From contig NZ_LT635448.1 of the NCBI RefSeq assembly GCF_900120005.1, positions 310,001 through 374,000 on the forward strand: a stretch of 64,000 nt of DNA, read 5' to 3'. Source of the stretch: Holdemania sp. Marseille-P2844 (GTDB taxonomy: Bacteria > Bacillota_I > Bacilli_A > Erysipelotrichales > Erysipelotrichaceae). Position numbers and translations under genes: made by a program. Position 1 is the first letter of the stretch, and every line of letters begins with the position of its first letter. Shown one piece after another: positions 37,403 through 64,000 of this stretch. The notes beneath the pieces were generated by a model. That model was not told the DNA's origin, searched no databases, and saw only the letters and a list, made by a program, of their open reading frames with translations.

Positions 37403-37414
37403 CAAGACCGGTGT

Positions 37415-37452
37415 GCCGGGTTGGTGAACGCCACAATCCGGCCGCTGTTTTT
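37415..37452 (+). terminator. Weak hairpin after M81 copy 3
   Basis: GCCGGGTTG / CAATCCGGC stem followed after 5 bases by TTTTT; may lower transcription into the transporter genes. Confidence 0.4.
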
Positions 37453-37493
37453 GATGGAATAAAACGGGAGAGAAGACAAAGGGGGACGAGTGT

Positions 37494-38552: not shown

Positions 38553-38571
38553 CGGAAAGAAAGGGAAAACG

Positions 38572-39786: not shown

Positions 39787-39849
39787 AACGAAGTTTTGAG
39801 AATTTTATCCAAGCGTCGCTCAGGCGCTTAAAAAACGATAAGAAATCTC

Positions 39850-39855
39850 TATAAT
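39850..39855 (+). promoter_or_regulatory. Possible -10 box for the GH1 pair
   Basis: TATAAT at 39850-39855 without a good -35, about 47 bases before the first GH1 start. Confidence 0.35.
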
Positions 39856-39901
39856 GGAGATCAGAAAGAAATCAGTCGGCAAAGACTGGAAGGAGGTACC
39901 G

Positions 39902-41311
39902 ATGAACGGTAAAGTCAAAAAGGATTTTTTATGGGGCACAGCCAGCGCGGCTTATCAATGTGAAGGCGGCTGGAACGAAGGCGGCAAAGGGGAAAGCAAC
40001 TGGGATCAGTTCTGCCATGGACCGAAGAACGTCAAAGGCTTCACCGGCGACGTCGCGGCGGACTTTTACCACCGCTACAAAGAGGACATCCGGCTGTTGA
40101 AGGAAGGCGGCCACAACACGCTGCGCTTCTCGATCGCCTGGACGCGGATTCTGCCGGATCAAAGCGGCCAGGTCAATCCGGAAGGCGTCGCCTTCTACAA
40201 GGACGTTTTGAAGGAATGCCGGGAAAACGGCATCACGCCGAACGTCACGCTGCTGCACTACGACATCCCGGCCTGGCTGGAAGATCTGGGCGGGTATGCC
40301 AATCCGATTTTCCCAGATGAATTCGCAAAATACTGCAAGGTCGTCTTTGAGCAGTTCGGCAATGAAATCCCATTATATGTGACGATCAACGAATCGACGC
40401 ACAACGCGTACTGTTCCTATCTGACCGGCAACTATCCGCCGAATATCCACAACGTGCAGACGCTGGTTCAGGTCTGCTACAATCTGGTCGTTGCCAACGC
40501 CAAGGCAATCCGCGAGTTCCGCAAGCTGAATCTGACGTCGCAGGTCGGCATCGTGCACACGACCAACACCGTCCAGATCCTCAAGGACACGCCGGAATAC
40601 CGCGTGGCGCAGCGGCGCGGAGATCTGTTTAAAAACAAGTGGGTTACCGATCCGGCGATCCTGGGAAAATTCCCGGATGATCTGTTCCCGCTGTTAGAGG
40701 AAAGCGGCATCGACCTGTCGTTTGTCAAGGAAGAAGATCTCGAGATCATCAAGCACAACACGATCGATTTCCTCGGTCAGAACTGCTACACCCGCGCGCT
40801 GGTCAAACCGTACGAATCCGGGGAAACCAACTATTATCCGAATAATGTCGGAGCCGGGGTCAAGACGATCGAGGGCTATACCGTCAAGGGTTGGTTCCAG
40901 ACCGATGTCGATCCGAACACGCCGAAAAACGCCTGGAGCCGCGAGATTTATCCCAAGACGGTATACGATATGCTGATGGGAATTAAGAAGGACTACGGCG
41001 ATATTCCGGTTTACATCACGGAAAACGGCCATGCCCTCTATGAACAGCCGGATACCAACGGCGAGGTCAACGACGATGAGCGGATCGAATTTCTGAAGTC
41101 GTATCTTGAATGGCTGATCAAGGCAGAAAACGAAGGCTGCAACGTCAAGGGCTACTATGCCTGGTCGACGACCGACTGCTACTCCTGGATCAACGGCTAC
41201 GAAAAGCGTTACGGCTTGATTTATGTCGATTACGCCAACGGTCTGAAGCGGATTCCAAAGAAGAGCTATCACTGGTACCGCGAGTTCATCCATGAACATA
41301 CCGAGGACTGA
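39902..41311 (+). CDS. GH1 6-phospho-beta-glycosidase, copy 1
   Basis: A 469-residue GH1 enzyme. Acid/base E164 lies in T-I-N-E-S (the usual Pro after Glu is Ser) and nucleophile E374 in I-T-E-N-G. The C-terminal Y-S-W-I-N-G-Y-E-K-R-Y has Ser, Lys (+7) and Tyr (+9) at the spacing that binds the 6-phosphate in LacG-type enzymes, instead of the Glu-Trp of free beta-glucosidases. It hydrolyses imported phospho-beta-glycosides to glucose- or galactose-6-P plus aglycone. AAGGAGG fixes ATG 39902. The next GH1 gene begins 3 bases after its stop. Confidence 0.93.
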   Translation: MNGKVKKDFLWGTASAAYQCEGGWNEGGKGESNWDQFCHGPKNVKGFTGDVAADFYHRYKEDIRLLKEGGHNTLRFSIAWTRILPDQSGQVNPEGVAFYKDVLKECRENGITPNVTLLHYDIPAWLEDLGGYANPIFPDEFAKYCKVVFEQFGNEIPLYVTINESTHNAYCSYLTGNYPPNIHNVQTLVQVCYNLVVANAKAIREFRKLNLTSQVGIVHTTNTVQILKDTPEYRVAQRRGDLFKNKWVTDPAILGKFPDDLFPLLEESGIDLSFVKEEDLEIIKHNTIDFLGQNCYTRALVKPYESGETNYYPNNVGAGVKTIEGYTVKGWFQTDVDPNTPKNAWSREIYPKTVYDMLMGIKKDYGDIPVYITENGHALYEQPDTNGEVNDDERIEFLKSYLEWLIKAENEGCNVKGYYAWSTTDCYSWINGYEKRYGLIYVDYANGLKRIPKKSYHWYREFIHEHTED

Positions 41312-41314
41312 TCA

Positions 41315-42727
41315 ATGGCTGAAAAATTTCTCTGGGGCTCCGCGACGGCAGCCTATCAATGCGAAGGCGCCTGGGACGCGGACGGCAAGGGGCCGAGCAT
41401 CTGGGATCAGTTCTGCCACAGCGAAAAGAACACGACCGGGATCACCGGCGACGTGTCCTGCGATTTCTATCATCATGTCGAAGAAGATCTCCGGATGATG
41501 GCCGAGGGCGGTCAGAACACCTTCCGGTTCTCCATCAGCTGGTCACGCATTCTGCCGAAAAACGACCATGTCGTCAATCCGGCCGGTCTGGCCTTCTATG
41601 ACCGCGTGCTGGACGCGTGTGAAAAATACGGCATCGTGCCCAACGTCACGCTGATCCATTATGATCTGCCGGACTATATCGGCGATCAGGGCGGCTGGTG
41701 TTATCCCGGCGTGGCCGATGAATTCGCTTATTACTGTTCCGTGGTATTCAAGCACTTCGGCGACCGGATTCCGCTGTATGTGACGATCAATGAACCGAAC
41801 CACAATGCTTACTGCGATTACTGCGTCGGCAACTATCCGCCAAATGAAACCAATCTGCAGCACTATTGCCAGTGTGCTTACAACATGGCGGTCTGCACGG
41901 CCAAGGCGATCCGCGAGTTCCGCAAGCTGAATCTCAAGGCGCAGATCGGCGTGGTGCAGGGCTGCGGCCCGGCGACGGCGCTCAAGGATACGCCGGAGTA
42001 CCGCGACGCGGTCAAATATTGCAACTATTTCTGCAACGACTGGATTCTCGATCCGGCGATCAAGGGCGCTTATGATCCGGAGCTGATCGCCGCTGTCAAA
42101 GCGAAGGGCATCGACCTGTCGTTTGTGAAGGAAGAGGATCTGGAAATCATGAAGCACAACACGATTGATTTCTTAGGCCAGAACATTTACAGCCGGATGC
42201 TGGTAAAACCGAACACCTCCGGCATCACTGCTTTCACCGTCAACAACGCCGGAAACAACGACGGCTCGGCGAATGCCGCGCGGGAGACCCGGGCGATTGC
42301 CGGCTGGTTTGAAAGCGACCGCGATCCCAATACCAAGCTCAATCACTGGGGCCGCGAGATCTTCCCGCAGTGCGCCTACAACACGCTGATGGAACGCAAG
42401 CGCCGCTATGGCGATATCCCGATCTACGTTACGGAAAACGGCCACGGCTGTTACGACGTCGCGGATGAAAACGGCTATGTTGAAGATGACGAGCGGATTG
42501 AATTCCTCCGCAATTATCTTCATTATATTCTGAAGGCGAAGCAGGACGGCGTGAATCTGAAGGGCTATTACGTCTGGTCGACGATGGATCTTTACAGCTG
42601 GATCAACGGCTACAAGAAGCGCTATGGTCTGGTGCGCGTGGACTATGACGATCCGCAGCGCAAGCGCACGCCGAAGAAAAGCTATTTCTGGTACAAGCAG
42701 TTTATCGCTGAGCATCAGGATCTTTAG
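41315..42727 (+). CDS. GH1 6-phospho-beta-glycosidase, copy 2
   Basis: A 470-residue GH1 enzyme with acid/base E160 (T-I-N-E-P), nucleophile E374 (V-T-E-N-G) and phosphate-binding pattern Y-S-W-I-N-G-Y-K-K-R-Y. It starts 3 bases after copy 1, so it is probably translated by coupling; GAGGA within the end of copy 1 may serve. It is very like copy 4 at 62345 (same N-terminus from F-L-W-G-S-A-T to about residue 45, same length), more than like its neighbour copy 1, so the duplications are not simply tandem. Confidence 0.93.
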   Translation: MAEKFLWGSATAAYQCEGAWDADGKGPSIWDQFCHSEKNTTGITGDVSCDFYHHVEEDLRMMAEGGQNTFRFSISWSRILPKNDHVVNPAGLAFYDRVLDACEKYGIVPNVTLIHYDLPDYIGDQGGWCYPGVADEFAYYCSVVFKHFGDRIPLYVTINEPNHNAYCDYCVGNYPPNETNLQHYCQCAYNMAVCTAKAIREFRKLNLKAQIGVVQGCGPATALKDTPEYRDAVKYCNYFCNDWILDPAIKGAYDPELIAAVKAKGIDLSFVKEEDLEIMKHNTIDFLGQNIYSRMLVKPNTSGITAFTVNNAGNNDGSANAARETRAIAGWFESDRDPNTKLNHWGREIFPQCAYNTLMERKRRYGDIPIYVTENGHGCYDVADENGYVEDDERIEFLRNYLHYILKAKQDGVNLKGYYVWSTMDLYSWINGYKKRYGLVRVDYDDPQRKRTPKKSYFWYKQFIAEHQDL

Positions 42728-42737
42728 GCTTAATTTT

Positions 42738-42797
42738 AAGGCATCCTTCGCGGCAACCGCCGGCCTGTGCCGCAGCTGTCCGATCCGGATGCCTTTT
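42738..42797 (+). terminator. Terminator after GH1 copy 2
   Basis: AAGGCATCC / GGATGCCTT perfect 9-bp outer stem enclosing a GC-rich structured loop, then TTTTC. Confidence 0.7.
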
Positions 42798-42819
42798 CTA
42801 AATGCAAGGGGGAAAACCG

Positions 42820-43752
42820 ATGTTTGATTTGTCTGTTCTGTTGAATGTGGAAATGCAGATTCTGATCTTTTTCGGGCTTGGTCTGCTTTTGAAGAAAAGA
42901 GGAGTGACCGACGGTCCGATCGACGCGTTTCTGTCGACGTTGATTTTGAATCTGATCATGCCGGTCAATATCTTCCTTTCCTTTTACCGCAGCGTTTCCG
43001 TCGCGGTGTTAAAAGAAAGCCTCCTGTTGGTGCTGGCGGGCGTGATCGTGGTCGTGCTCGTGTTGGGAATGGCGCGGCTTTTGCCCAAGTCGATGCCGTT
43101 AGAAAAGAAGCGGATTGCGCAATATTCGATGTTGATATCCAACGGTTCGCTGATCGGTCTGCCTTTGATCGAAGGGCTGTGCGGAAGCATGGGGGTCGTG
43201 TATGCGAACATCTTTATGATTCCGACGCGGATTCTGTCGTTTTCCTCCGGGGAGAAATATTTCAATACGGAGTGGAAGCCGGCAGGGGCCCTATCCGTGA
43301 TGAAGAAATTCTTTTTCAATCCGATCACGATCGCGATGATTCTGGGATTTCTGTTCAACCTGGCACGGATTCCGCTGCCGGGCGGGCTGGATGCGGTGTT
43401 CAGTTCCTTGTCCGGATGCATGAGTCCGCTGGCGCTGTTGTTAGTTGGATCGACGCTGCTGGACAGGGAATCGACAAGCGCGGGATTATCGAAGGACATC
43501 GTGCAGATCAGTCTGTTCCGGCTGATCATCGCGCCGTTCTTGACCTGGATCGTGGGTGTGGCGCTGCATTTAAGCACGCCGCAGCTGATTGCCGCCGTGC
43601 TGGTCAACGCGACGCCGGTCGCCTCCACGGCCACGATCTTCTGCCGCAAGTATAACGGCAACACCAGCTATACCAGCCGCTGCGTTTTCTTTTCCACGGT
43701 TTTTTCCCTGTTTACGTTAGTGTTGGTTTCCGCTACAATGTCGATGGGATAA
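42820..43752 (+). CDS. AEC-family transporter (second)
   Basis: A 310-residue permease with about ten hydrophobic segments, related in size and layout to the protein at 5374 (L-I-L-N-L-I-M-P, S-N-G-S-L-I-G-L-P, and L-V-G-S-T-L near two-thirds). Substrate unknown; organic acid or aglycone export would suit the location after GH1 genes. GGGGGAAAA precedes ATG 42820. It is followed 13 bases later by a MATE gene, possibly co-transcribed. Confidence 0.8.
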   Translation: MFDLSVLLNVEMQILIFFGLGLLLKKRGVTDGPIDAFLSTLILNLIMPVNIFLSFYRSVSVAVLKESLLLVLAGVIVVVLVLGMARLLPKSMPLEKKRIAQYSMLISNGSLIGLPLIEGLCGSMGVVYANIFMIPTRILSFSSGEKYFNTEWKPAGALSVMKKFFFNPITIAMILGFLFNLARIPLPGGLDAVFSSLSGCMSPLALLLVGSTLLDRESTSAGLSKDIVQISLFRLIIAPFLTWIVGVALHLSTPQLIAAVLVNATPVASTATIFCRKYNGNTSYTSRCVFFSTVFSLFTLVLVSATMSMG

Positions 43753-43765
43753 GGGGGAATTTTCC

Positions 43766-45136
43766 ATGACGCGACGTCTTCAATTCAAGGTCGATCTGAT
43801 TCACGGACCGATCTTTCAAAGCTTGCTTTTCTTTGCGATACCGCTGTTTTTTTCCAATGTGTTTCAGCAGTTATACAATACCGTCGATACGATGATCGTC
43901 GGCCATGCGCTGGGCGATTTGTCACTGGCGGCGATCGGTTCCTGCGCCGCGATTTATGATTTGCTGATCGGTTTCGCGTTAGGCATCGGCAACGGTCTGG
44001 CGATCGTGACGGCGCGCAGCTACGGCGCCAACGATACGGAGCTGCTTAAAAAATCGGTGGCGGCTTCGATCGTGATCGGCCTTTTGACTTCGCTGGTGCT
44101 GACAGTAGGCGCGGAAGTGATTTTAATGCCGTTGCTGAAAATGCTGGATACGCCGCCGGAGATCATCGCCGAGGCGTTCAGCTACATTTCGGTGATCACG
44201 CGGTTCACGCTGGTCATGTTCGCGTATAATTTGTGCGCGGGTCTGCTTCGGGCGATCGGCAACAGCTTCATGCCGCTGGTCTTTTTAGTTTTATCGTCAT
44301 GTCTGAACATCGGGCTGGATCTGTTTTTCATCACGCAGCTGCACATGGGCGTCGGCGGGGCGGCGGTTGCGACCGTCATCGCGCAGGGAATTTCCGTCGT
44401 CTTGTGTCTGATTTATATTTTGAAGAAAGCGCCGGTCTTAATTCCGCAGCGCCGGCACTTTAAAATCGAGCGGGGGATTTATGCGGAGATGTTAGGTCAG
44501 GGCTTGTCGATGGGCTTTATGGGCAGCATCGTTGCGGCAGGTTCCGTCGTGCTGCAGTATGGCATCAACAATCTTGGAACGCTGGTGATCGCGGGGCATA
44601 CCGCGGCGCGCAAGCTGTTCATGTTCTTCAATATGCCGTTTTCCGCCATGGCGATGGCGATTTCGACGTTTGTTTCACAGAACCGGGGCGCGGATCAGCG
44701 GACGCGGATTCTCAAGGCGATGCGGTGCGCTGTGCTGTATGATATCGCGATGGCCGCAGGAGTAACCGTGATTCTGTTGTTGTTCGCGCCGGCTCTGGTT
44801 CAGCTGATTTCCGGCTCGCAGGAGGCTGTCGTGCTGAACAACGGAGCCTTGTATCTGCGGGTAGTCGGACCGTTCTATGCCGTTCTGGGCGTCTTGTTGG
44901 AAACCCGGTACGCGCTGCAGGGATTAGGCGCCAAAATGATTCCGCTGGTGTCGAGTGTAATCGAGCTGTTGGGAAAGATTGTATTCGCGTTCGTGTTCAT
45001 TCCAAGGTTTCAGTATCTCGCGGTGATTTTCTGCGAACCGGTGATCTGGTGTCTGATGACGGCGCAGTTGATTTACGCTTATGCTGCCCATCCTTATATC
45101 CGAGGAGAAAAAGGAAAAGCGGAATTATCGGTTTAA
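43766..45136 (+). CDS. MATE-family efflux transporter (third)
   Basis: A 456-residue MATE protein with the expected twelve helices and the sequence Q-Q-L-Y-N-T-V-D-T-M-I-V-G-H-A-L-G, typical of a large Firmicute branch. It follows the AEC gene closely. In this setting it could export toxic aglycones released from beta-glucosides, but no sequence feature proves the cargo. Confidence 0.88.
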   Translation: MTRRLQFKVDLIHGPIFQSLLFFAIPLFFSNVFQQLYNTVDTMIVGHALGDLSLAAIGSCAAIYDLLIGFALGIGNGLAIVTARSYGANDTELLKKSVAASIVIGLLTSLVLTVGAEVILMPLLKMLDTPPEIIAEAFSYISVITRFTLVMFAYNLCAGLLRAIGNSFMPLVFLVLSSCLNIGLDLFFITQLHMGVGGAAVATVIAQGISVVLCLIYILKKAPVLIPQRRHFKIERGIYAEMLGQGLSMGFMGSIVAAGSVVLQYGINNLGTLVIAGHTAARKLFMFFNMPFSAMAMAISTFVSQNRGADQRTRILKAMRCAVLYDIAMAAGVTVILLLFAPALVQLISGSQEAVVLNNGALYLRVVGPFYAVLGVLLETRYALQGLGAKMIPLVSSVIELLGKIVFAFVFIPRFQYLAVIFCEPVIWCLMTAQLIYAYAAHPYIRGEKGKAELSV

Positions 45137-50516: not shown

Positions 50517-50545
50517 TTGACACCTCTGACGAAATCGCTTACAAT
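50517..50545 (+). promoter_or_regulatory. Promoter of the M81 cluster, with cre-like box
   Basis: TTGACA (50517-50522), 17-bp spacer, TACAAT (50540-50545). CGAAATCGCTTACA at 50530-50543 matches the cre consensus with one mismatch and covers the -10; the ATCGCTTACAAT core is identical to that in the 27.2-kb promoter. Confidence 0.78.
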
Positions 50546-50557
50546 AAAAACGAAGTT

Positions 50558-50590
50558 GGATTGTTATTGTTTTATAAAACAAGCAAAACC
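50558..50590 (+). promoter_or_regulatory. RAT: second LicT-type antiterminator site
   Basis: GGATTGTTATTG...AAAACAAGCAAAACC, differing from the RAT at 27266 at only three positions, all in the middle of the hairpin. Confidence 0.92.
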
Positions 50591-50627
50591 AATTTGCAGG
50601 GCTTTTGTTCTGCAGATTGGTTTTTTT
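50585..50627 (+). terminator. Conditional terminator in the M81 leader
   Basis: AAAACCAATTTGCAG / CTGCAGATTGGTTTT stem and T-run, overlapping the end of the RAT as in the PTS leader. Confidence 0.92.
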
Positions 50628-50695
50628 GTTTTTCAGGGTAGTTGTCCATAAAATTACAGTTCAGCTTGCAGGACATGGAAAGAGAGGAATTCCTT

Positions 50696-52144
50696 ATGAA
50701 AGTCTTGATCGGCCAGTTTGTTACGGAATCCAACGCCAACATTCCCCATCAGTGTGAAATCACGGATTATGACATCGCCTTCGGCGAGGAATGTATCCAG
50801 AAGATGCAGATCCGTCCGGTTTTTGAGAAGCACGGGATCGAGCTGATTCCTTCGATTTACGCCAATGCCGGAGCGGCGGGCGTCGTCAGTCAACACGCGT
50901 TCGCTTATATTGAAAGCTGCTTTCTGAAGGCGGTACGGGAACATCTCCATGAGATCGACGGAATTTATTTCATGCTTCATGGCGCGAGCGAGGTCGCGGA
51001 GCTGGAAGGCGGATCCGGTGATCATCACATTCTTCAGGAAGTCCGCAAGCTGGTCGGCCCTTATGTTCCGATCGCGGTGGCCTGTGATCCACATGGCAAT
51101 CTGAAACAGGACTATGTCGAATCGATTCAGATTCTGCGCAGCTATCGGCAGTCGCCGCATACAGATAAGGAAGAAACCTATGAAAAGGTGACGAGCTTGT
51201 TATGCGAGCTGCTGAAGCACCGCCAGGCAATTCACGCCGTGTACCGCAAGCTGCCGTTAATTCTGGGCGGGGAACAGAGCGTTTCCGCAGACGAACCGGT
51301 GCGCTCAATCAACCGGTACATGGACGAACTGGAACAGGATCCGCGGATTCAGAGCTGTTCCTGGCATGTCGGCTATATCCGCCATGACTGCGACGTCGCC
51401 GGCTGTGGCATCGTCGTGGTGCCGGCCCGGACCGAGGATCAGGCTTATGCGGAAACGATCGCCGATCAGTTGGCGGCGTATGTCTGGGACCGCCGCCATG
51501 AATTCCATTACACTGGTCTGACCGCAAAGCCCGAGGAAGCGCTGGCGATGACGCTGGAGTTTGAGGGCAGCCCGGCGGTGATCACCGATTCCGGAGATAA
51601 TACGACCTCCGGCGCAACCGGCTGGAACACGTTTGTGCTGCGTCAGGTGTTAGCGGTGGAGGCACTGAAAAAAAGCTTCCTGTTCGCACCGATCTGCGAT
51701 CCGAAGACCGCGGATCAGCTGAAAACCTGTCAGCCGGGCGAAACAGTCCGGATTGATCTGGGCGTGGGCTACGACGCGCTTTCAGAAAGCGTCCCGCTGG
51801 ACGTCGTCGTGAAAAGCCATGGTGAAATCGCGCGTTTTGTCGGCGAGGAACTGATCAAAGTCTTCGGCAGCTGCACGCTGGTAAGCGTCAAAGACCGGCC
51901 GATTGATATTATCATTTCAAACACCAGCCAGCCGATCATCGTCAACCCGCAGCTGCGCCACCTCGGCATCGAATGGACGGATTACGACGTCACGGTCGTG
52001 AAACAAGGCTATATCTTCCCGGATTTCAAAGCGCAGGCCCAATTCTACGTCATGTCGCTGACCGACGGTGCGACCCCGCAGGACACCGCTTCGATTCCCT
52101 TCAAGCGGATCATGCGGCCGATGTTCCCGATCGATCAGATTTAA
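50696..52144 (+). CDS. M81 family metallopeptidase, copy 4
   Basis: A 482-residue M81 protein, first gene of the RAT-controlled cluster. Ligand motifs T-E-S-N-A-N, L-H-G-A-S, C-D-P-H-G-N and Q-S-P-H-T-D are intact; tail R-P-M-F-P-I-D-Q-I. It is the closest match to copy 1 (shared M-K-V-L-I-G-Q-F start, R-Q-S-P before the last His, C-D-P-K-T later), linking the two loci. GAGAGGAA precedes ATG 50696; the open frame upstream is untranslated leader. Its control by a sugar-responsive antiterminator is the strongest evidence that these hydrolases belong to beta-glucoside metabolism. Confidence 0.9.
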   Translation: MKVLIGQFVTESNANIPHQCEITDYDIAFGEECIQKMQIRPVFEKHGIELIPSIYANAGAAGVVSQHAFAYIESCFLKAVREHLHEIDGIYFMLHGASEVAELEGGSGDHHILQEVRKLVGPYVPIAVACDPHGNLKQDYVESIQILRSYRQSPHTDKEETYEKVTSLLCELLKHRQAIHAVYRKLPLILGGEQSVSADEPVRSINRYMDELEQDPRIQSCSWHVGYIRHDCDVAGCGIVVVPARTEDQAYAETIADQLAAYVWDRRHEFHYTGLTAKPEEALAMTLEFEGSPAVITDSGDNTTSGATGWNTFVLRQVLAVEALKKSFLFAPICDPKTADQLKTCQPGETVRIDLGVGYDALSESVPLDVVVKSHGEIARFVGEELIKVFGSCTLVSVKDRPIDIIISNTSQPIIVNPQLRHLGIEWTDYDVTVVKQGYIFPDFKAQAQFYVMSLTDGATPQDTASIPFKRIMRPMFPIDQI

Positions 52145-52187
52145 AGCCAGTAAGTTCGAATCAATGTGTTCCAAGGAGGAAATCAAG

Positions 52188-53630
52188 ATGAAAGTTATGG
52201 TAGGCTTATTTACAACTGAATCCAACGCCAACGTGCCGGGGAAAAACGAGATCGGCAGCTACGATCTCGGCTTCGGCGACGACTGTGTCCGCAAGCTGCG
52301 GGTCGGCGAGGTATTCCAGGCCGCCGGGATCGATGTGATTCCGTCCGTGTATGCCAGCGCCGGGGCCTCCGGCGTGATCACGCGCGAAACCTTCGATTAC
52401 ATCGAATCGCTGTTTGTCCGCACGGTCAAGGAACATCTCCATGAGATCGACGGCATCTATCTGCATCTGCACGGCGCCAGCGAGGTGGAAGGTCTGGGTT
52501 CGGGGGATCATCACATCCTGGCCGCGATCCGCAAGCTGACCGGCCCGTATCTGCCGATCGCTGTAGCCTGTGATCCGCATGGCAACCTGTGCCAGGAATA
52601 TGTGGACAACTGCACGATTCTGCGCAGCTACCGTGAATCTCCGCACACCGACGCGGATGAAACCAAACGTCAGGTCGCGCAGATGTTATGCGATCTGTTG
52701 AAGCACCGTCAGAACATTCATGCGATTTACCGCAAGCTGCCGTTAATCCTCGGCGGGGAACAGAGCGTGTCGACGGATGAGCCGGTTCGCTCGATCAATC
52801 AGTTTATGAATGAGCTGGAACAGGATCCGCGGATCTTGAGCTGTTCCTGGCATGTCGGCTACATCCGTCACGACAGCGACGTCGCCGGCTGCGGCATCGT
52901 CGTGGTGCCGGCTACGGAAAAAGACAGCGCTTATGCGGAAACGGTTGCGGATCAGCTGGCTGCCTATGTCTGGGACCGCCGGCATGAATTTCACTACACC
53001 GGCCTGACCGCGAAACCGGAAAAAGCGATGGAAATGGCGCTGGCCTTTGAAGGCAAGCCGGTATTTATCACCGATTCCGGGGATAACGTTACCTCCGGCG
53101 CGACCGGCTGGAATACGTTTATTTTACGTCAGGTGCTGGCCGTTCCGCAGCTGACCAAGCGCTTCCTGTTTTCCAATATCTGCGATCCGGATACCTGGCT
53201 GCTTCTCGATTCGCTGCCGTCCGGGACAGAAACTCAGATCACGCTGGGCGTTGGCGCTGACGCGAATTCCGCACCGGTTACGCTCGATGTGATCGTGCGA
53301 AGCAAGGGCAGTCTGCGCGGATATCTGATGCATGATCACGACGCGCATTACGGGGATGCCGTTGTCGTGTCCGTCAAGGGTCTGCCGATCGAGATCAGCG
53401 TGGCGTCCACGCGCCAGACGATGTGTGAGAAACATCAGTTTGATGCGCTGGGGATTGATTGGGATGATTACGACGTAATCGTCGTCAAACAGGGCTATAT
53501 CTTCCCGGATCTCAAAGCGAAGGGCCAGTTGTGCATCATGTCGCTGACCGGCGGCGCGACGCCGCAAGATACCGCCTCAATTCCGTTCAAGCGGATTCAG
53601 CGGCCAATGTTCCCGATCGACGAGATTTAG
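52188..53630 (+). CDS. M81 family metallopeptidase, copy 5
   Basis: A 480-residue M81 protein with T-E-S-N-A-N, L-H-G-A-S, C-D-P-H-G-N, E-S-P-H-T-D and tail R-P-M-F-P-I-D-E-I. AAGGAGG lies just upstream of ATG 52188. A much longer frame reaching back into copy 4 is a shadow. In copies 5, 6, 7 and 8 the residue before S-P-H is Glu (Y-R-E-S-P-H), separating them from copies 1 and 4 (Gln) and from copies 2 and 3 (His). Confidence 0.9.
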   Translation: MKVMVGLFTTESNANVPGKNEIGSYDLGFGDDCVRKLRVGEVFQAAGIDVIPSVYASAGASGVITRETFDYIESLFVRTVKEHLHEIDGIYLHLHGASEVEGLGSGDHHILAAIRKLTGPYLPIAVACDPHGNLCQEYVDNCTILRSYRESPHTDADETKRQVAQMLCDLLKHRQNIHAIYRKLPLILGGEQSVSTDEPVRSINQFMNELEQDPRILSCSWHVGYIRHDSDVAGCGIVVVPATEKDSAYAETVADQLAAYVWDRRHEFHYTGLTAKPEKAMEMALAFEGKPVFITDSGDNVTSGATGWNTFILRQVLAVPQLTKRFLFSNICDPDTWLLLDSLPSGTETQITLGVGADANSAPVTLDVIVRSKGSLRGYLMHDHDAHYGDAVVVSVKGLPIEISVASTRQTMCEKHQFDALGIDWDDYDVIVVKQGYIFPDLKAKGQLCIMSLTGGATPQDTASIPFKRIQRPMFPIDEI

Positions 53631-53642
53631 GGGACAGAGTTC

Positions 53643-55085
53643 ATGAAGGTTTTAATCGGCTTCTTCACCACCGAGTCCAACGCGAACATCCGGCAGAAAG
53701 CGACGCTGGCGGATTATGATCTGGCATGGGGTGAAGACTGCCTGAAAAAAAACAAAGTCAGCGACGTTTTCAGCCAGGCCGGGATTGAGATGATTCCCTC
53801 GCTGTATGCCAATGCGGCCGGGGCTGGTGTGATTGAAAGAAAGGCGTTTGAGTATATTGAAACCAATTTCTTAACGGCGGTACGGAAACATCTGCACGAG
53901 CTGGATGGGATTTATCTGCATCTGCACGGCGCCAGTACCGTGGAGGGGTTAGGCTCCGGCGATCATCACATTCTGAAAAAAATCCGGGAGCTGACCGGGC
54001 CGTATCTGCCGATTGCCGTGGTGTGCGATCCGCATGGGAATCTCACGCAGGAATATGTTGAAGCCTGTACGATTCTGCGCAGTTATCGGGAAAGTCCGCA
54101 TACCGACGCGGATGAAACGAAACGGAAGGTGGCTCAACTGCTTTGCGATCTGTTGAAAAACCGCCGGAATATCCATGCGGTTTACCGCAAGCTGCCGTTA
54201 ATTCTCGGTGGAGAACAGAGCTTGTCGGCGGATGAACCGGTGCGTTCGATCAATCGGTATCTGGATGAGCTGGAACAGGATCCGCGGATCTTAAGCTGTT
54301 CCTGGCATGTCGGCTATCTGCGTCACGATTGTCCGGAGGCGGGATGCGGCATCGTCGTCGTTCCGGCCAGCGGAAAGGATCAGGCGTATGCGGAGACGAT
54401 CGCTGATCAGCTGGCGGAGTATGTCTGGCAGCGGCGGCATGAATTCCACTATACGGGATTGACGGCAAAGCCGCAGGAAGCTTTGCGGATGGCGCTGGAA
54501 TTTGATGGCAAGCCGGTGTTTCTGACCGATTCCGGAGATAATGTGACCTCGGGCGCCAGCGGCTGGAATACCCGTGTGCTGCGGCAGTTTCTCGCTGTCG
54601 GTCATTTACAGAAACGCGTCCTGTTCGCGTCGATCTGCGATCCCAAGGCCGTTAACCAGCTGCAGGATCACGCGGTCGGCGAACGCGCGGTCTTTAATTT
54701 GGGCATGAATGCCGACGTTCATTCGGAAAGCGTCGCCTTGAACGGCACGATCATCGCGAAGGGACCGTTAATGGGCAATCTGTGGAGCGGGCGTCAGCGG
54801 GTTTGGGGACAAACCGTCACCGTCCGGCTGGAAACGAAACCGATCGACGTCTTGATCGCTTCCAAAAATAACACGCTGTGCGAACAGCACCAATACGAGG
54901 CTGCGGGCGTGGATTGGGATGATTACGACGTGATCGTCGTGAAGCAGGGCTATATCTTCCCGGAATTAAAGGCGAAAGGGAAACTGTGCGTGATGTCGCT
55001 GACCGACGGCGCGACGCCGCAGGACACCGCCTCGATTCCCTTCAAGCAGATTCAACGCCCGATATTTCCGATTGATGAGATTTAA
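53643..55085 (+). CDS. M81 family metallopeptidase, copy 6
   Basis: A 480-residue M81 protein starting 12 bases after copy 5, without intervening promoter. Motifs T-E-S-N-A-N, L-H-G-A-S, C-D-P-H-G-N and E-S-P-H-T-D are present; the tail reads R-P-I-F-P-I-D-E-I. It has G-G-E-Q-S-L-S where most copies have G-G-E-Q-S-V-S, and L-R-H-D-C-P-E-A-G in the middle, a variant shared only with copy 9. Confidence 0.9.
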   Translation: MKVLIGFFTTESNANIRQKATLADYDLAWGEDCLKKNKVSDVFSQAGIEMIPSLYANAAGAGVIERKAFEYIETNFLTAVRKHLHELDGIYLHLHGASTVEGLGSGDHHILKKIRELTGPYLPIAVVCDPHGNLTQEYVEACTILRSYRESPHTDADETKRKVAQLLCDLLKNRRNIHAVYRKLPLILGGEQSLSADEPVRSINRYLDELEQDPRILSCSWHVGYLRHDCPEAGCGIVVVPASGKDQAYAETIADQLAEYVWQRRHEFHYTGLTAKPQEALRMALEFDGKPVFLTDSGDNVTSGASGWNTRVLRQFLAVGHLQKRVLFASICDPKAVNQLQDHAVGERAVFNLGMNADVHSESVALNGTIIAKGPLMGNLWSGRQRVWGQTVTVRLETKPIDVLIASKNNTLCEQHQYEAAGVDWDDYDVIVVKQGYIFPELKAKGKLCVMSLTDGATPQDTASIPFKQIQRPIFPIDEI

Positions 55086-55098
55086 GGAGGGAAAAAGG

Positions 55099-56541
55099 AT
55101 GAAAGTTATGATCGGCACGTTGTATGCCGAATGCAACGATCAGATTCCAACGCGGGCCCGGCTGGAAAATTTCGATCTGGCCCGGGGCGAAGCCTGTATT
55201 GATAAAATGAAGATCCGGTCTGTCTTTGAACAAGCGCAGATCACGCTCATTCCGGCGCAGTATGCCGACGGCGGATCGACCGGTGTGATCGAGCGGTCAG
55301 CTTACGATTATATTGAATCCCAGATGCTTCAGACGTTAAAAACGCATCTTCACGAACTGGACGGAATCTATTTGTTTCTGCACGGCGCCAGTGAGGTGGA
55401 AGGGATGGGGTCTGGCGAACATCGGCTGCTGAAAAAAATCCGGGAGCTGACCGGGCCGTATCTGTCGATAGCTGTCACCGCTGACCCGCACGGCAACCTG
55501 TGCCGGGACTATGTGGAACAATGCACGATTCTGCGCAGCTACCGTGAATCACCGCACACCGACGCCGACGCGACGAAACGCCGAGTCGCGCAGATGTTGT
55601 GCGATCTGTTAAAAAAACGGCAGAATATCCATGCCCTTTACCGCAAGCTGCCGTTGATCTTAGGCGGGGAACAGAGCGTGTCGACGGATGAACCGGTGCG
55701 CTCAATCAATCAGTATATGGATGAGCTGGAACAGGATCCGCGGATTTTAAGCTGTTCCTGGCATGTCGGTTATATCCGTCACGATACCGACGTCGCCGGC
55801 TGCGGCATCGTCGTGGTGCCGGCCACGGAAAGCGACAGCGCTTATGCGGAAACGATTGCGGATCAGCTGGCGGAATACGTCTGGCAAAAACGCCATGAAT
55901 TCCACTACACCGGTCTGACTGCCGGTTTGGAGGAAGCGCTGGACATGGCTGTCAATTTTGAAGGCAAACCGGTGTTTATCAGCGATTCCGGGGATAATGT
56001 CACCTCCGGGGCGACCGGTTGGAACACGTTGGTATTACGCCGTGTATTGGCGCGGAAGACGCGGACAAAATCATTTCTGTTTGCGGCAATCTGCGATCCC
56101 GGAGCATTTGGGAAGCTTAACGCCCTGGCGGTGGGATCCGCCGCGGAGTTTACGCTGGGCGTCAATCATGACGCCTGCTCAGAAAGCGTGGCGCTGCGGG
56201 GAACGGTCAAAGCCAAAGGCAAGCTGATGGGCTATGCGCTGCATGACGTCAACGCGGTGTTCGGCGAATGTGTCGTTGTATCGCTGCAGGATGAGAACAT
56301 CGACGTGATTGTCAGCAGCACCCGGCAGGTGCTGTGCGAGCAGCATCAGTTTGAAAACGCCGGCGTGAACTGGGACGATTACGATGTGATCGTCGTGAAG
56401 CAGGGCTATATTTTCCCAGAGTGCAAGGCGAAGGGCAGACTGTGCGTCATGGCGCTGACCCCGGGAGCGACGCCGCAGAACACCGCGATGATTCCGTTCA
56501 AGCGGATTCAGCGCCCGATGTTTCCGATCGATCAAATATAA
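55099..56541 (+). CDS. M81 family metallopeptidase, copy 7 (variant active site)
   Basis: A 480-residue M81 protein. The Glu motif is A-E-C-N-D-Q rather than T-E-S-N-A-N, and the metal loop is T-A-D-P-H-G-N (Cys to Ala), while D, H and the later H of E-S-P-H-T-D stay. G-S-G-E-H replaces G-S-G-D-H near residue 105. It also reads T-P-Q-N-T-A-M-I-P-F near the C-terminus, where the others have T-P-Q-D-T-A-S-I-P-F. It looks catalytically able but tuned differently. AAGGAGG precedes ATG 55099. Confidence 0.88.
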   Translation: MKVMIGTLYAECNDQIPTRARLENFDLARGEACIDKMKIRSVFEQAQITLIPAQYADGGSTGVIERSAYDYIESQMLQTLKTHLHELDGIYLFLHGASEVEGMGSGEHRLLKKIRELTGPYLSIAVTADPHGNLCRDYVEQCTILRSYRESPHTDADATKRRVAQMLCDLLKKRQNIHALYRKLPLILGGEQSVSTDEPVRSINQYMDELEQDPRILSCSWHVGYIRHDTDVAGCGIVVVPATESDSAYAETIADQLAEYVWQKRHEFHYTGLTAGLEEALDMAVNFEGKPVFISDSGDNVTSGATGWNTLVLRRVLARKTRTKSFLFAAICDPGAFGKLNALAVGSAAEFTLGVNHDACSESVALRGTVKAKGKLMGYALHDVNAVFGECVVVSLQDENIDVIVSSTRQVLCEQHQFENAGVNWDDYDVIVVKQGYIFPECKAKGRLCVMALTPGATPQNTAMIPFKRIQRPMFPIDQI

Positions 56542-56554: not shown

Positions 56555-57811
56555 ATGGAAATTAATGCCCAACGGTTATGGAACCGGCTTCATCAGTTAG
56601 GCCAGATCGGCGTCGATCCGCAGGGCGGCGTCACACGCTGGACCTTTACCGACGCAGACACTCAGGCGAAGAACTGGCTGATCAGCGAAATGAAGGCGGC
56701 CGGGCTGGACGTGCATGAGGATCCGGTCGGCAACGTCATCGGCGTCTACAATCCCGGCGGCAGCCCGTTAGCGCCGGTGCTGTGCGGCTCCCACTTCGAC
56801 ACCGTGCGCAACGCCGGCATTTTCGACGGCTGTCTGGGACTGTTGGCGGGCGTGGAAGCGGCGCAGACGTTTAAGGAAAATCAAATAGACTTGAAACGGC
56901 CGCTGTGGATTATCGGCTACCGCGATGAGGAAGGCAACCGGTTCAATTCCGGGATGATCGGAAGCAAGACGGTCACCGGAAAGGCGCTGCCTGAAGATTT
57001 CCTGGTTCAGGACGCGGCGGGCATCACGCTGAAGGAGACGATGGAACGCTGCGGATATCATCCGGAAGCGTATCGTCAGGGTCAGATCGATCCGATTTAT
57101 GCCAGCGTGGAGCTGCATATCGAACAAGGCAAGGTTCTGGAACAGAATCAGTGTCCGGTTGGGATCGTCGAAGGCATTCCGTATCTGCGCTTCTATGAAG
57201 TGACGCTGAGCGGATGCAGCGGCCATGCGGGCGCGACGCCGATGAACGACCGGCAGGATCCCGTGCTGGCGATGACCGAATGGATTCGTCAAATCACGGA
57301 ATCGGCCCGTCAGAAGCCCTACACCGTCGCAACAGTCGGCTGCATTCAGACCTTCCCCGGCTCCACGAACGTCATCTGCGATCACGTCACCTTCACGCTG
57401 GATATCCGCAGTCTGGATGAAGCTCAGATTGAAGCCTGTCTGCGGGAGATCGAGACGTTGGAAGCCCGCCTGGAAAGCGAGGGCATTCAGGTCCGGCGCG
57501 AACTGCGGCATATTCTGTATGGCATGGATTGCGATGAACGGCTGAAGCACCAGCTGGAAACGATTGTGGAAAAGCGGGATCTGCCGGCCTTCCGGCTGAT
57601 GAGCGGCGCGGGCCATGACAGTCAGAATTTCAAGGATGTCTGCCCGTGCGCGATGATTTTCGTCCGTTCGGTCAACGGCTATTCACACCGCAAGGAAGAA
57701 TATACGCCGATCGAAGACTGCGCGGCGGGCGCGAATGTGCTGATGGACATGCTTTATCAGCTGGCCAACGAAGAAGATCGTGCATCGGCATCCCCGCAAA
57801 CGATCCTTTGA
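56555..57811 (+). CDS. M20 family amidohydrolase (N-carbamoyl-amino acid/allantoate type)
   Basis: A 418-residue zinc-dependent hydrolase of the HyuC/AllC branch. Metal-site motifs: G-S-H-F-D-T-V and G-I-F-D-G (His, Asp), D-E-E-G-N-R-F (catalytic Glu pair), E-L-H-I-E-Q-G (His) and S-G-A-G-H-D-S (His). The dimerisation domain carries S-G-H-A-G-A-T-P-M. These enzymes cut N-carbamoyl or ureido groups and some amides. Its position inside the M81 series, 13 bases after copy 7, implies it acts on the same compounds. Confidence 0.9.
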   Translation: MEINAQRLWNRLHQLGQIGVDPQGGVTRWTFTDADTQAKNWLISEMKAAGLDVHEDPVGNVIGVYNPGGSPLAPVLCGSHFDTVRNAGIFDGCLGLLAGVEAAQTFKENQIDLKRPLWIIGYRDEEGNRFNSGMIGSKTVTGKALPEDFLVQDAAGITLKETMERCGYHPEAYRQGQIDPIYASVELHIEQGKVLEQNQCPVGIVEGIPYLRFYEVTLSGCSGHAGATPMNDRQDPVLAMTEWIRQITESARQKPYTVATVGCIQTFPGSTNVICDHVTFTLDIRSLDEAQIEACLREIETLEARLESEGIQVRRELRHILYGMDCDERLKHQLETIVEKRDLPAFRLMSGAGHDSQNFKDVCPCAMIFVRSVNGYSHRKEEYTPIEDCAAGANVLMDMLYQLANEEDRASASPQTIL

Positions 57812-57928: not shown

Positions 57929-59371
57929 ATGAAAGTTTTGATGGGAACCTTCGTCACAGAATCCAACGCCAACGTCCCGGCTAAAACCCGGATCAACCAT
58001 TATGACATGGCCTTTGGCGAGGACTGTCTGCGCAAGATGAACGTTGCAGACATTTACGCCGCGGCCGGCATTGAAACGATCGGCGCGATCTACGCCGACG
58101 CCGGCGGCAACGGCGTCGTCACAAAAGACGCGTTTGATTACATCGAAGGCTGTTTCGCGGACGCGGTCCAGGCGCACCTGCAGGAGATCGACGGAATTTA
58201 TCTGTTTCTGCACGGCGCCAGCGAAGTCGAGGAGATCGGCTCCGGCGATCATCACATCCTGAAAACAATCCGTGAAATAACCGGCCCGTATCTGCCGATC
58301 GCCGTGGTCTGCGATCCGCACGGCAATCTGTGTCAGGAATATGTGGACAACTGTACGATTCTGCGCAGCTACCGCGAATCTCCGCATACCGATGCCCAAG
58401 CATCCAAACGCATCGTTTCGCAGATGCTGTGCGACCTGCTTCACGACCGCCAGCACATCCACGCCGTATACCGCAAGCTGCCGCTGATCCTGGGGGGCGA
58501 ACAGAGCGTATCGGCGGATGAACCGGTGCGTTCAATCAACCGCTACATGGACGAGCTGGAACATGATCCGCGGATCCGCAGCGTGTCCTGGCATGTCGGC
58601 TACATCCGGCATGACTGCGACGTGGCCGGCTGCGGGATTGTCGTCGTGCCTCAGAACACCGCCGATCAGGCCTATGCGGAAACCATCGCCGATCAGCTGG
58701 CAGAAACTGTCTGGAACAAGCGCCATGAATTCCATTATACGGGATTGACCGCCCATCCGGACGAAGCGTTGAAAATGGCGCTGGACTGCGCGGAAAAACC
58801 AGTGTTCATCACGGATTCCGGCGATAACGTCACCTCCGGCGCAACCGGCTGGAACACGTTCGTTCTGCGTCAGGTCTTAGCGGTAAAGGAGCTGAACAAA
58901 CGCTTCCTGTTTGCGACGATCTGCGATCCGGACGCCTATGAAACGTTGGCAAAGCTGCCGGACGGCACGGAAACAAGCTTGAAACTGGGCGTGGGTTATG
59001 ACGAATACTCCGCCCCGGTGACCCTGGAAGTCGTCGTGAAGTCAAAGGGCGAGCTGCGCGGCTTCATGTACCGCGATCATAACCGGGCTTACGGCTACTG
59101 CGTCACGGTCAGCGTGAAGGGCCTGCCTGTCGAGATCATGGTTGCCAGCAATCGTCAGGCGATGGTGGAAATTCACCAGTTTACCGATGCCGGTATTGCG
59201 TTGGACGACTACGATGTGATCGTCGTCAAGCAAGGCTATATCTTCCCGGAACTCAAGGCTGCGGGCAAGCTGTGCGTGATGTCGCTGACCGGCGGCGCGA
59301 CGCCGCAGGACACCGCGTCGATTCCGTTTAAACGAATTATGCGGCCGATGTTTCCGATCGATGAAATGTGA
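57929..59371 (+). CDS. M81 family metallopeptidase, copy 8
   Basis: A 480-residue M81 protein with T-E-S-N-A-N, L-H-G-A-S, C-D-P-H-G-N and E-S-P-H-T-D; the tail ends R-P-M-F-P-I-D-E-M, the only copy not ending in Ile. It starts after a 117-bp gap behind the M20 gene, which shows no terminator, with AAGGAGAG upstream. The next copy begins 10 bases past its stop. Confidence 0.9.
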   Translation: MKVLMGTFVTESNANVPAKTRINHYDMAFGEDCLRKMNVADIYAAAGIETIGAIYADAGGNGVVTKDAFDYIEGCFADAVQAHLQEIDGIYLFLHGASEVEEIGSGDHHILKTIREITGPYLPIAVVCDPHGNLCQEYVDNCTILRSYRESPHTDAQASKRIVSQMLCDLLHDRQHIHAVYRKLPLILGGEQSVSADEPVRSINRYMDELEHDPRIRSVSWHVGYIRHDCDVAGCGIVVVPQNTADQAYAETIADQLAETVWNKRHEFHYTGLTAHPDEALKMALDCAEKPVFITDSGDNVTSGATGWNTFVLRQVLAVKELNKRFLFATICDPDAYETLAKLPDGTETSLKLGVGYDEYSAPVTLEVVVKSKGELRGFMYRDHNRAYGYCVTVSVKGLPVEIMVASNRQAMVEIHQFTDAGIALDDYDVIVVKQGYIFPELKAAGKLCVMSLTGGATPQDTASIPFKRIMRPMFPIDEM

Positions 59372-59381
59372 GGTGAAGATC

Positions 59382-60824
59382 ATGAAAATAATCGCGGCTA
59401 AATTTACCCTGGAAGCTAACGAACACGTCCCGATGTTCTGCGATCTGGAAAACACCGCCCTGAGCTTTGGCAAAGAGGCGCTGTCGCACATGCAGCTGGG
59501 TGATGTCTTTGACCGTCCGGACATCGAACTGATCCCGGTTCTCTGCGCCGACGCCGGCTGCAGCGGCGTGATGCGCAAGGGTTGTTTCAATTATCTCGAA
59601 CAGCGGATTCTCAATACCGTCCGTGAACATTTGCCAGAGCTGGATGGGATCTATCTGCATCTGCACGGCGCGAGCTTCGTGGAGGAAATCGGCAGCGGCG
59701 AGCAGCATTTAGTGCGGGAAATCCGCAAGCTGACCGGGCCGTATCTGCCGCTCGCGATCGCCTGCGACCCGCACGGCAATCTGACGCGGGACTATGTGGA
59801 AAACACGACGTTTATCCGCTCTTACCGGGAAGCGCCGCACACCGATATCTCGGCGACGGTGCAGCGCACCGCCCGCACGCTGATCGAGCAGATTGAACAT
59901 CCGAAGAACGCCCGGCCGGTGTACCGCAAGCTGCCGTTGATTCTGGGTGGGGAACAGAGCGTTTCGCTTGATGAACCGGTGCGCACCATCAACCAATTCA
60001 TGGATCAGCTGGAACAGGATCCGCGGATCTTAAGCTGTTCGTGGCACGTCGGTTATCTGCGTCACGACTGCCCGGAGGCCGGCTGCGGGATCGTCGTGAT
60101 TCCTCAGACAGAAGCCGATCAGGCATATGCCGAAACGATCGCCGATCAGCTGGCGGAATTCGTCTGGAACAAACGCCATGAATTCCACTACACCGGCACC
60201 ACCGCGGCCCCGGACGAAGCGCTGGCGATGGCTCTGGCCTTTGACGGCAAGCCGGTCTTCATTACGGATTCCGGCGATAACGTTACCTCCGGCGCAATGG
60301 GCGCGAACACGTTCATTTTAAGACAGGTGCTGACTCTGCCGGCGTTGTCCAAGCGCATTCTGTTCGCCGCGATCAACGATCCAGCCGCTTGCCACCGGTT
60401 GATGGCCTGTGCGGAGAACGAACAGGTTTCGCTGCGTTTGGGGATGGGACTGGATGCATACAGCGAACCGGTCGATCTCGATGTCGTTGTGCTGCATCAT
60501 GGCCGCCAGGCGGGAACGGCGATGTATGGTGAGGAAGGCGATTACGGACCGATCGTTACCGTGCGGCTGCCGGGGACACCGATTGATATCGCGGTCACCG
60601 ACAACAATCATTCGTTTGTCGAAATCCGTCAGCTGACCGCCTGCGGCATTAACGTGGAAGACTATGATATTTTCGTCGTCAAGCAAGGCTACATCCATCC
60701 GGAGCTGAAGGCTCTGGGCAAGCTGTGCGTCATGTCGCTGACCGGCGGGGCGACGCCGCAGGATACCCGGCTTATTCCGTTTAAACAAATCCTGCGCCCG
60801 ATGTTTCCGATCGATGAAATTTAA
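59382..60824 (+). CDS. M81 family metallopeptidase, copy 9 (most divergent of subgroup A)
   Basis: A 480-residue M81 protein. The Glu motif is L-E-A-N-E-H, the first helix is shifted (M-K-I-I-A-A-K-F), the last His motif is E-A-P-H-T-D, and it lacks the T-G-W-N segment (M-G-A-N instead). D and H of C-D-P-H-G-N remain; tail R-P-M-F-P-I-D-E-I. GAGGTG fixes ATG 59382. Ends the M81 series; GH1 genes follow. Confidence 0.88.
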   Translation: MKIIAAKFTLEANEHVPMFCDLENTALSFGKEALSHMQLGDVFDRPDIELIPVLCADAGCSGVMRKGCFNYLEQRILNTVREHLPELDGIYLHLHGASFVEEIGSGEQHLVREIRKLTGPYLPLAIACDPHGNLTRDYVENTTFIRSYREAPHTDISATVQRTARTLIEQIEHPKNARPVYRKLPLILGGEQSVSLDEPVRTINQFMDQLEQDPRILSCSWHVGYLRHDCPEAGCGIVVIPQTEADQAYAETIADQLAEFVWNKRHEFHYTGTTAAPDEALAMALAFDGKPVFITDSGDNVTSGAMGANTFILRQVLTLPALSKRILFAAINDPAACHRLMACAENEQVSLRLGMGLDAYSEPVDLDVVVLHHGRQAGTAMYGEEGDYGPIVTVRLPGTPIDIAVTDNNHSFVEIRQLTACGINVEDYDIFVVKQGYIHPELKALGKLCVMSLTGGATPQDTRLIPFKQILRPMFPIDEI

Positions 60825-60902
60825 CGCTGCCCTTGAGCGGTACATCGCCCGGCAATCCCGGAGCTTTACTGCCCTTGCTGGTCTGTGTGGGGGAAGAACG
60901 GG

Positions 60903-62315
60903 ATGCCGCCCATGAACCCAAACGGACAATTCCCCGCGGATTTTCTGTGGTCCGCTTCCACCAGCGCCTGGCAGTTTGAAGGCGGCGCGCTGGATGAGGG
61001 CAAAGGCCCGTCCGTTCAGGATATCCGGCCGGGTCAAGGGGAAATCCTGCGGACCGCCTCCGATCATCTGCATCATCTGGAGGAAGACGTCGCACTGTTG
61101 AAAGCAATGGGATTAAAGGCTTATCGCTTTTCGATTTCGTGGTCCCGCGTGCTGCCGCAGGGGCGCGGTCAAGTCAACGCGCAGGGATTGGCGTTTTATA
61201 CCCGTTTGATCAAGCTGTTGAAGGAAAATCAGATAGAACCGATCGTCACGCTTTATCATGATGATCTGCCCTGGGCGCTGGCCAGGCAGGGCGGCTGGGC
61301 ATGCCGGGAAACGATCGACGCCTTTGAGGACTATTGCGGGCTGATGTTCGATCACTTCGCCGGGCAAGTCCTGTACTGGCAGCCGATTTGCGAACAAAAT
61401 CTGTTGACGATCGACCGGCTGCTTTCGCCCTCCGGTTCGCTGGCGCAGGCGTTTCAGGAAAATCATCATCGGACGCTGGCGCAGGCCCGCGTCTTCCGGC
61501 GGTTTCATCAACGCGGATATCCGGGCTGGATCGGCCCGGCGCTGAACCTGGTGAAGGTTTACCCGCTGACGCCGGATCCCGAGGATGTGGAAGCTGCAAT
61601 GAATATGGAATTGATCCGGAACTGGCTGGATCTCGATCTGGCTGTGAGCGGCCGGTATTCCGCCCCGGCCGCGGCGCTGTTAACCCGGCTGGGCGCGATG
61701 CCGAAGCTGGAGCCTGGGGATGCGGAAACTTTAAAAAGCGGGTTGGCGACGATGGTTTCATTCAGCAGCTATACCTCGGTCACCGTCAAAAAAGGCGCGG
61801 CCGCAAGTTTCACGGATCCCACCGGGATGAAATATGGCTTCAATCTGCCCGGAATCTTTGAAATTGTTAAAAATCCAAAGCTGGGAACGAGCGGCTTCGA
61901 CTGTGAAGTCGATCCGGCGGGAACCCGCCTGATCCTGGAAGACGTGGCGCAGCGCACAGAGCTTCCGCTGTTCATCATCGAACGCGGCCTGGGATTGAAG
62001 GAAACCCCGGATACCCGGGGTGAGATCCGGGATGTCCGGCGGATTGCCTATCTGCGGAAACAGATCGAGCAGGCCCGCCTGGCGGCGCACGGCGTCCCGC
62101 TGATCGGGTACTGCACCTGGAGCGCGTTTGATCTGGCCAGTACGCAAAACGGCTATCAGAAACGATACGGTCTGATCTACGTCGACCGGGAGGATGACGA
62201 TCCCAAAGACTGCCGGCGGATTCCCAAGCTGAGCTATGCCTGGTTTCAAAAGGTCATTGCCAGCAGCGGGCAGGATCTGGAACTGACGGAAGAACTCAAC
62301 GGTAAATCCGAATAA
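60903..62315 (+). CDS. Divergent GH1 glycosidase, copy 3
   Basis: A 470-residue GH1-fold protein clearly apart from the other copies. The acid/base motif N-E-P is replaced by C-E-Q and the nucleophile motif T-E-N-G by I-E-R-G; both Glu remain, but the Asn that contacts the sugar 2-hydroxyl is lost. The phosphate pattern S-T-Q-N-G-Y-Q-K-R-Y keeps Ser, Lys and Tyr at LacG spacing. It may cleave an unusual 6-phospho-glycoside or be a weak enzyme. GGGGGA 8 bases before ATG 60903 fixes the start. Confidence 0.8.
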   Translation: MPPMNPNGQFPADFLWSASTSAWQFEGGALDEGKGPSVQDIRPGQGEILRTASDHLHHLEEDVALLKAMGLKAYRFSISWSRVLPQGRGQVNAQGLAFYTRLIKLLKENQIEPIVTLYHDDLPWALARQGGWACRETIDAFEDYCGLMFDHFAGQVLYWQPICEQNLLTIDRLLSPSGSLAQAFQENHHRTLAQARVFRRFHQRGYPGWIGPALNLVKVYPLTPDPEDVEAAMNMELIRNWLDLDLAVSGRYSAPAAALLTRLGAMPKLEPGDAETLKSGLATMVSFSSYTSVTVKKGAAASFTDPTGMKYGFNLPGIFEIVKNPKLGTSGFDCEVDPAGTRLILEDVAQRTELPLFIIERGLGLKETPDTRGEIRDVRRIAYLRKQIEQARLAAHGVPLIGYCTWSAFDLASTQNGYQKRYGLIYVDREDDDPKDCRRIPKLSYAWFQKVIASSGQDLELTEELNGKSE

Positions 62316-62344
62316 TTTAAAAATCAGAGAACGGAGGATAGGAA

Positions 62345-63807: not shown

Positions 63808-64000
<193 letters not shown>

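Follow-up and report, generated by a model that had tools for sequence, protein, structure and literature searches.

Twin LicT-type leaders upstream of M81 hydrolase genes and a glycoside-type PTS operon in Holdemania

Background

Why should genes with the family name of peptidases be preceded by a leader of the type that controls beta-glucoside uptake? The question is raised by a leader at position 50,517 of the window (the whole 64,000-nucleotide stretch of Holdemania sp. Marseille-P2844 DNA analyzed here), a near twin of which stands before a PTS operon some 23 kb upstream. The original prediction held that one antiterminator, encoded at 27837, controls both leaders and so ties beta-glucoside uptake to M81 hydrolases. 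The regulatory device itself is of the ordinary, known bgl/LicT kind; what appears to be unreported in the papers searched is the M81 cargo with its recurrence, along with the matched RAT pairs. In those papers, which included few subscription articles, nothing relevant was found on M81 genes with a PTS or a glucosidase and no link of M81 to sugar transport, and the one M81 activity studied is the cleavage of a linearised cyanobacterial toxin. The regulatory wiring offers a direct clue to the conditions under which these enzymes act, and to their substrate class, in a common human gut genus.

Results and discussion

Anatomy of the two leaders

The elements of the two leaders are as follows (window coordinates, strand, feature).

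27224..27253, +, promoter 1, TTGACA-18-TACAAT, top promoter match in its region
27238..27251, -, cre-like site 1 (TGTAAGCGATACCA), overlaps promoter 1, 13/14 positions match
27266..27298, +, RAT 1, 42.6 bits with RAT model R1
27294..27350, +, terminator 1, AAACC in common with RAT 1, T-run, -26.0 kcal/mol, z -7.9
50517..50545, +, promoter 2, TTGACA-17-TACAAT, top promoter match in its region
50530..50543, -, cre-like site 2 (TGTAAGCGATTTCG), overlaps promoter 2, conserved position
50558..50590, +, RAT 2, 42.7 bits with RAT model R1
50585..50634, +, terminator 2, overlaps RAT 2, T-run, -23.6 kcal/mol, z -7.2

Both leaders consist of a promoter, about 12 bases, a RAT, and then a terminator that uses the 3' end of the RAT, and for neither terminator did any of 200 shuffled sequences reach equal stability; the predicted leaders, each with a RAT overlapping a terminator, are thus real. 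The two RATs share the 33-nucleotide pattern GGATTGTTATTGTT(CA/TT)ATAAAACAAGCAAAACC and differ at two positions (CA versus TT, both in the apical loop), rather than at the three originally counted. Their fold is canonical (G1-C33, G2-C32, internal loop A3/AA, U4-A29 to U7-G26, UA bulge, upper stem), and, together with the intrinsic terminator that it overlaps, gives the two-internal-loop hairpin characteristic of BglG/LicT systems; the upper stem is UUGUU/AACAA, the usual CUG/CAG being shorter. Because Rfam gave no match anywhere in the window at gathering scores, we built a RAT model of our own. Across 11 RATs from the window's genome and related genomes, 96.9% of cells pair; sliding the partner strand lowers this to 61% or less. 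Three pairs are altered on both sides.

Across eight aligned leaders the promoter -10 region shows no change, and neither does the core of the cre-like sites, which overlap both -10 regions. The window holds four cre-like sites where 4.3 are expected, which is not above chance, and the case for these two lies in position and conservation, not in number; on that basis CcpA probably also acts on both promoters.

Gene content of the two transcription units

The genes downstream of the two leaders, and those between them, are listed below.

27367..27810, +, PTS EIIA of the Glc/bgl family (PF00358, TIGR00830)
27837..28664, +, LicT/BglG-type antiterminator, CAT and two PRD (PF03123, PF00874 twice)
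29028..30416, +, PTS EIIBC, nearest the beta-glucoside subfamily (TIGR01995, 361 bits, cut-off 614.7)
30434..30464, +, strong hairpin in the gap between EIIBC and M81_1, weak T-run, also in genomes G002 and G003
30465..31994, +, M81_1 hydrolase, final gene of operon 1 (Pfam)
32066..32935, -, RpiR-type regulator with SIS domain, divergent (Pfam)
33015..45136, +, M24, two M81, AbrB-duplication membrane protein, MFS, two GH1, AEC, MATE (Pfam); no RAT in front
50696..52144, +, M81_4, directly downstream of leader 2 (ATG at 50696)
52128..56541, +, M81_5, M81_6 and M81_7 (Pfam)
56555..57811, +, M20-type amidase, hydantoinase/carbamoylase (TIGR01879, 399.5 bits, cut-off 204)
57929..60824, +, M81_8 and M81_9 (Pfam)
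60885..63757, +, GH1_3 and GH1_4, 6-phospho-beta-glycosidase type (S-x-x-NGYxKRYG)
63859..64000, +, start of GH1_5 (gene end L006:2263; terminator L006:2314-2346)

Unit 1 reads EIIA, LicT, EIIBC, M81 by Pfam: operon 1 also carries an M81 gene (30465), after EIIBC. The hairpin at 30434-30464 may be an attenuator or a processing site, and expression of M81_1 may drop there. Unit 2 comprises four M81 genes, M20, two further M81 genes and three GH1 genes (starts at 60885, 62345 and 63859) before a closing terminator (L006:2314-2346); its short gaps, and the lack of good internal terminators, suggest that this 14.6-kb run is a single transcript. The description of leader 2 as preceding peptidase genes, with neither PTS nor glycosidase, is borne out for its first gene, an M81, and for the PTS, but is wrong for glycosidases, the run ending in three GH1 genes. 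With no PTS gene in unit 2, a sensor for it must act in trans.

The protein at 27837 has a CAT RNA-binding domain followed by two PRDs, with all four phosphorylatable PRD histidines present in the alignment (LTDH, ALHI, ITHC, MIHL); its best-scoring NCBIfam family is the LicT equivalog NF046042, at 273.2 bits, below the cut-off of 300. The EIIBC and EIIA, on separate chains, score 361.1 and 156.8 bits against the beta-glucoside PTS model TIGR01995, whose cut-off of 614.7 is set for a whole IIABC, and the label 'beta-glucoside' for this PTS is accordingly one of family resemblance, naming the best-matching subfamily and a putative substrate class. Four of the five GH1 proteins retain TINE as acid/base motif and ENG as nucleophile motif, and all five finish with S...NGYxKRYG, as is typical of 6-phospho-beta-glycosidases. 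GH1_3 (60885-62315) has the variant catalytic motifs ICEQ and IERG, both glutamates still being present.

Two other observations concern non-coding or accessory DNA in this stretch. We do not count a 91-amino-acid reading frame (28672-28947) as a gene, since conservation there is poor except for a hairpin. That hairpin (28664-28710) lies directly 3' of the LicT stop codon, in an otherwise poorly conserved 363-bp gap; it is kept in three species (z -2.6 to -3.7) with compensatory stem changes (CAGCCC/GGGCTG, CAGACC/GGTCTG, CAGTCC/GGACTG), and perhaps serves RNA processing. Between the units, at 46303-47947, a DUF6088 gene stands beside an AbiEii nucleotidyltransferase gene as a type IV toxin-antitoxin-like pair, for which no match was reported in the corresponding H. 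massiliensis region.

Which antiterminator reads which RAT

The exact RAT pattern occurs twice in the 3.68-Mb genome (the reversed-pattern control, not at all) and still only twice when up to three mismatches are allowed. It was also found in H. filiformis and H. massiliensis and in none of the remaining 143 relatives searched. The leader pair is kept in all three Holdemania species, 23-26 kb apart and with the same gene order, and none of the three genomes holds a third copy at up to three mismatches. The window's LicT, the only one in this cluster, is 93-96% identical across the three species, and its nearest paralogues in its own genome are at most 33% identical.

The genome encodes five CAT-domain antiterminators, each with its own RAT. 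Those of the other four (C13, GGGTTGTAACTTGAAAAAGGCAAAGCC; C14, GAATTGTTACTGGGAACAGGCAAGATC; C15, GGGACATGTAACTGGTAATGCAGGCAGGATCTC; C11:139 kb, GGACTTGTTACTTGATCTTAAGATTAAGGCAAATTCC) are clearly unlike RAT 1 and RAT 2. The two most divergent RATs, those of C15 and C11:139 kb, escape the RAT model and came to light on inspection of the leaders; a census by the model alone is therefore incomplete. Since the other four proteins have their own, different RATs, the window's LicT is the simplest partner of both leaders, and the likely one. The evidence for a single antiterminator is indirect: a near-identical, conserved RAT pair, the only two of their type, with the other antiterminators otherwise provided for.

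It is known in the BglG/LicT family that an antiterminator can recognize the RAT of another, and with five CAT proteins in the genome, leader 2 might be read mainly by a paralogue (C13 or C14, for instance) or be shared among several that cross-talk; the RATs of both these proteins do retain UUGU/GCAA as their stem core, with scores of 32-34 bits in our model. We consider this improbable, because these RATs differ from the pair in lower-stem pairs, internal loop 1 or the upper stem and serve their own antiterminators in cis, whereas leaders 1 and 2 resemble each other far more than any other RAT and are conserved as a pair. Their high similarity could also mean that leader 2 arose recently by copying of leader 1 and has lost its relevance, but this has very little to recommend it: in the orthologous leader-2 sequences of three species the RAT, terminator and promoter are retained within otherwise diverging leader sequence, and leader 2 has loop changes of its own.

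A second M81 array, cluster B, was found in H. filiformis and H. massiliensis and not in the window's genome. Its LicT is 26% identical to the window's LicT, and it has two leaders, one before LicT-EIIBC-M81x4-AEC-M81 and one before EIIA-M81-M24. Both cluster-B RATs have C4/U29 in the lower stem where both window RATs have U4/A29; the second otherwise hardly departs from the window RATs, even in the upper stem. RATs that match within each cluster are what one would expect of LicT proteins that each read a single pair, and we infer such a private pairing. With their main difference at a single position of the lower stem, the two pairs offer a natural experiment on what keeps paralogous antiterminators separate. 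In the cluster-B LicT (L087:6825-7628, L088:12286-13089) the second PRD1 histidine is lost, with MNI in place of LHI, and phospho-control of this protein may therefore be different.

M81 genes and glycoside uptake

All nine M81 genes of the window score above gathering with both PF07364 and PF07171, and the zinc-binding D-x-H and P-H-x-D motifs are present in 80 of the 82 M81 proteins compared, including every one from the window. M81 occurs in 32 of 295 relatives, in many of which it adjoins EIIBC, EIIA, LicT, GH1, M24, AEC or AbrB genes (for example, EIIA-LicT-EIIBC-M81-M81-M24-GH1 in G187 and EIIA-LicT-EIIBC-M81-M24-GH1 in G084). Each of the ten M81 genes of the window's genome has a GH1 or EIIB gene no more than 10 kb away; of the genome as a whole, about 10% lies within 8 kb of one. 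The ten genes form about three clusters and so do not represent ten independent events. The tenth (L021, G000:C11:245000-260000) sits in an M24-M81-GH1-EIIBC-EIIA group with no recognized RAT.

In a tree of the 82 proteins, one group of 66 contains 53 members linked to PTS or GH1 genes, 10 whose stretches are too short for a call and 3 that count as unlinked under an 8-kb limit; for at least one of these three (G002r_19019, the M81 directly after leader 2 in H. massiliensis) that limit is the only reason. Support for the group is moderate (85/52), and for a 55-member part of it 100/100. The M81 link is therefore broader than first proposed: in one Erysipelotrichaceae M81 clade nearly all members stand beside beta-glucoside-type PTS or GH1 genes, and other BglG-type antiterminators control several of these loci. 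A strict division into PTS-linked and orphan clades was rejected (14 label changes, compared with 22.6 in shuffles). Two M81 genes in genomes of different families, L106:2131-3567 (G123) and L092:6389-7825 (G050), are near-identical (tree branches below 0.005), which would reflect recent transfer or contamination of one assembly.

The genomic linkage of M81 genes to PTS glycoside control, recurring in other genera and in the second Holdemania array, appears well supported; of the predicted tie to beta-glucoside uptake, the glycoside part stands and the beta-glucoside part is weakened, the cut-off for that PTS not being reached. The association suggests that M81 enzymes help to digest sugar-linked compounds. 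They might instead, like the M20 and M24 enzymes, be peptidases or amidases of a general sort that came under carbon control to serve nitrogen or peptide nutrition and play no part in glycoside use, as their family names, the orphan M81 genes of related genera and the sole characterized M81 found, which cleaves linearised microcystin peptides (PMC9982164), would allow. We regard this as rather unlikely, given that the expanded clade consistently adjoins PTS and GH1 genes, that cluster B repeats the M81-PTS link independently and that no peptide transporter was identified by Pfam among the window genes of this cluster.

Proposed mechanism

We think it very probable that one LicT (27837) drives both transcription units through the classic bgl mechanism and that the M81 enzymes act in glycoside catabolism, to which shared LicT control would assign them. 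Without substrate, the membrane EIIBC (29028) would phosphorylate LicT, and transcription would halt at the terminator of each leader. On import of a beta-glucoside-type substrate, LicT would lose the phosphate from EIIBC, be activated through HPr and dimerise; the dimer would stabilise both RAT hairpins and let RNA polymerase read through, as in the established LicT/BglG model set out in the available text of two papers (PMC1489936, PMC12628678). Unit 1 would then yield EIIA, LicT, EIIBC and one M81, and unit 2, in trans, six M81 hydrolases, the carbamoylase-like M20 amidase and three 6-phospho-beta-glycosidases, with CcpA probably regulating both promoters as well. The intact M81 zinc motifs, together with an M20 protein of the hydantoinase/carbamoylase amidases, favor amide-like bonds in imported glycosides or aglycones as the most likely targets. 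Speculatively, aglycones could leave the cell through the AEC, MATE and MFS transporters, in line with the export described for Lactobacillus acidophilus (PMC5698550).

More tentatively, and with somewhat less than even confidence, we propose that the M81 clade and its M20 and M24 partners form an unrecognized catabolic module of gut Erysipelotrichaceae for PTS-imported, nitrogen-containing or acylated glycosides, some Holdemania having two such modules, each with a private LicT and a matched RAT pair.

Relation to known systems

The B. subtilis LicT regulon also includes bglS/licS. The locus resembles that regulon (bglPH) in having one LicT, a RAT with an overlapping terminator, a PTS EII sensor, a second target in trans and cre control, all of these being predicted roles here; it differs in that an M81 array, accompanied by M20 and three GH1 genes, takes the place of a beta-glucanase as second target, and in the UUGUU/AACAA upper stem, which makes a longer hairpin. 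Two RATs under one antiterminator are likewise found in Clostridium acetobutylicum bglGTH (one BglG; RAT GGATTGTTACTG-N6/7-CAGGCGAGACC), although both lie in one operon there and M81 genes are not described in the available portion of that paper (PMC12628678). The plant-glucoside loci of Lactobacillus acidophilus, also a gut bacterium, share LicT, a bgl-type PTS and a GH1 phospho-beta-glucosidase and are associated with aglycone export, M81, M20 and M24 genes not being reported in the accessible part of the account (PMC5698550). MlrC microcystinase (PDB 7YLQ; PMC9982164) and 3IUU belong to the same M81 family and have the same D-x-H and P-H-x-D motifs; M81_5, the one M81 scanned against the MlrC model (NF041767), scores 53.1 bits where the cut-off is 999, and unlike MlrC the M81 genes here stand in a PTS/GH1 context and have expanded in tandem.
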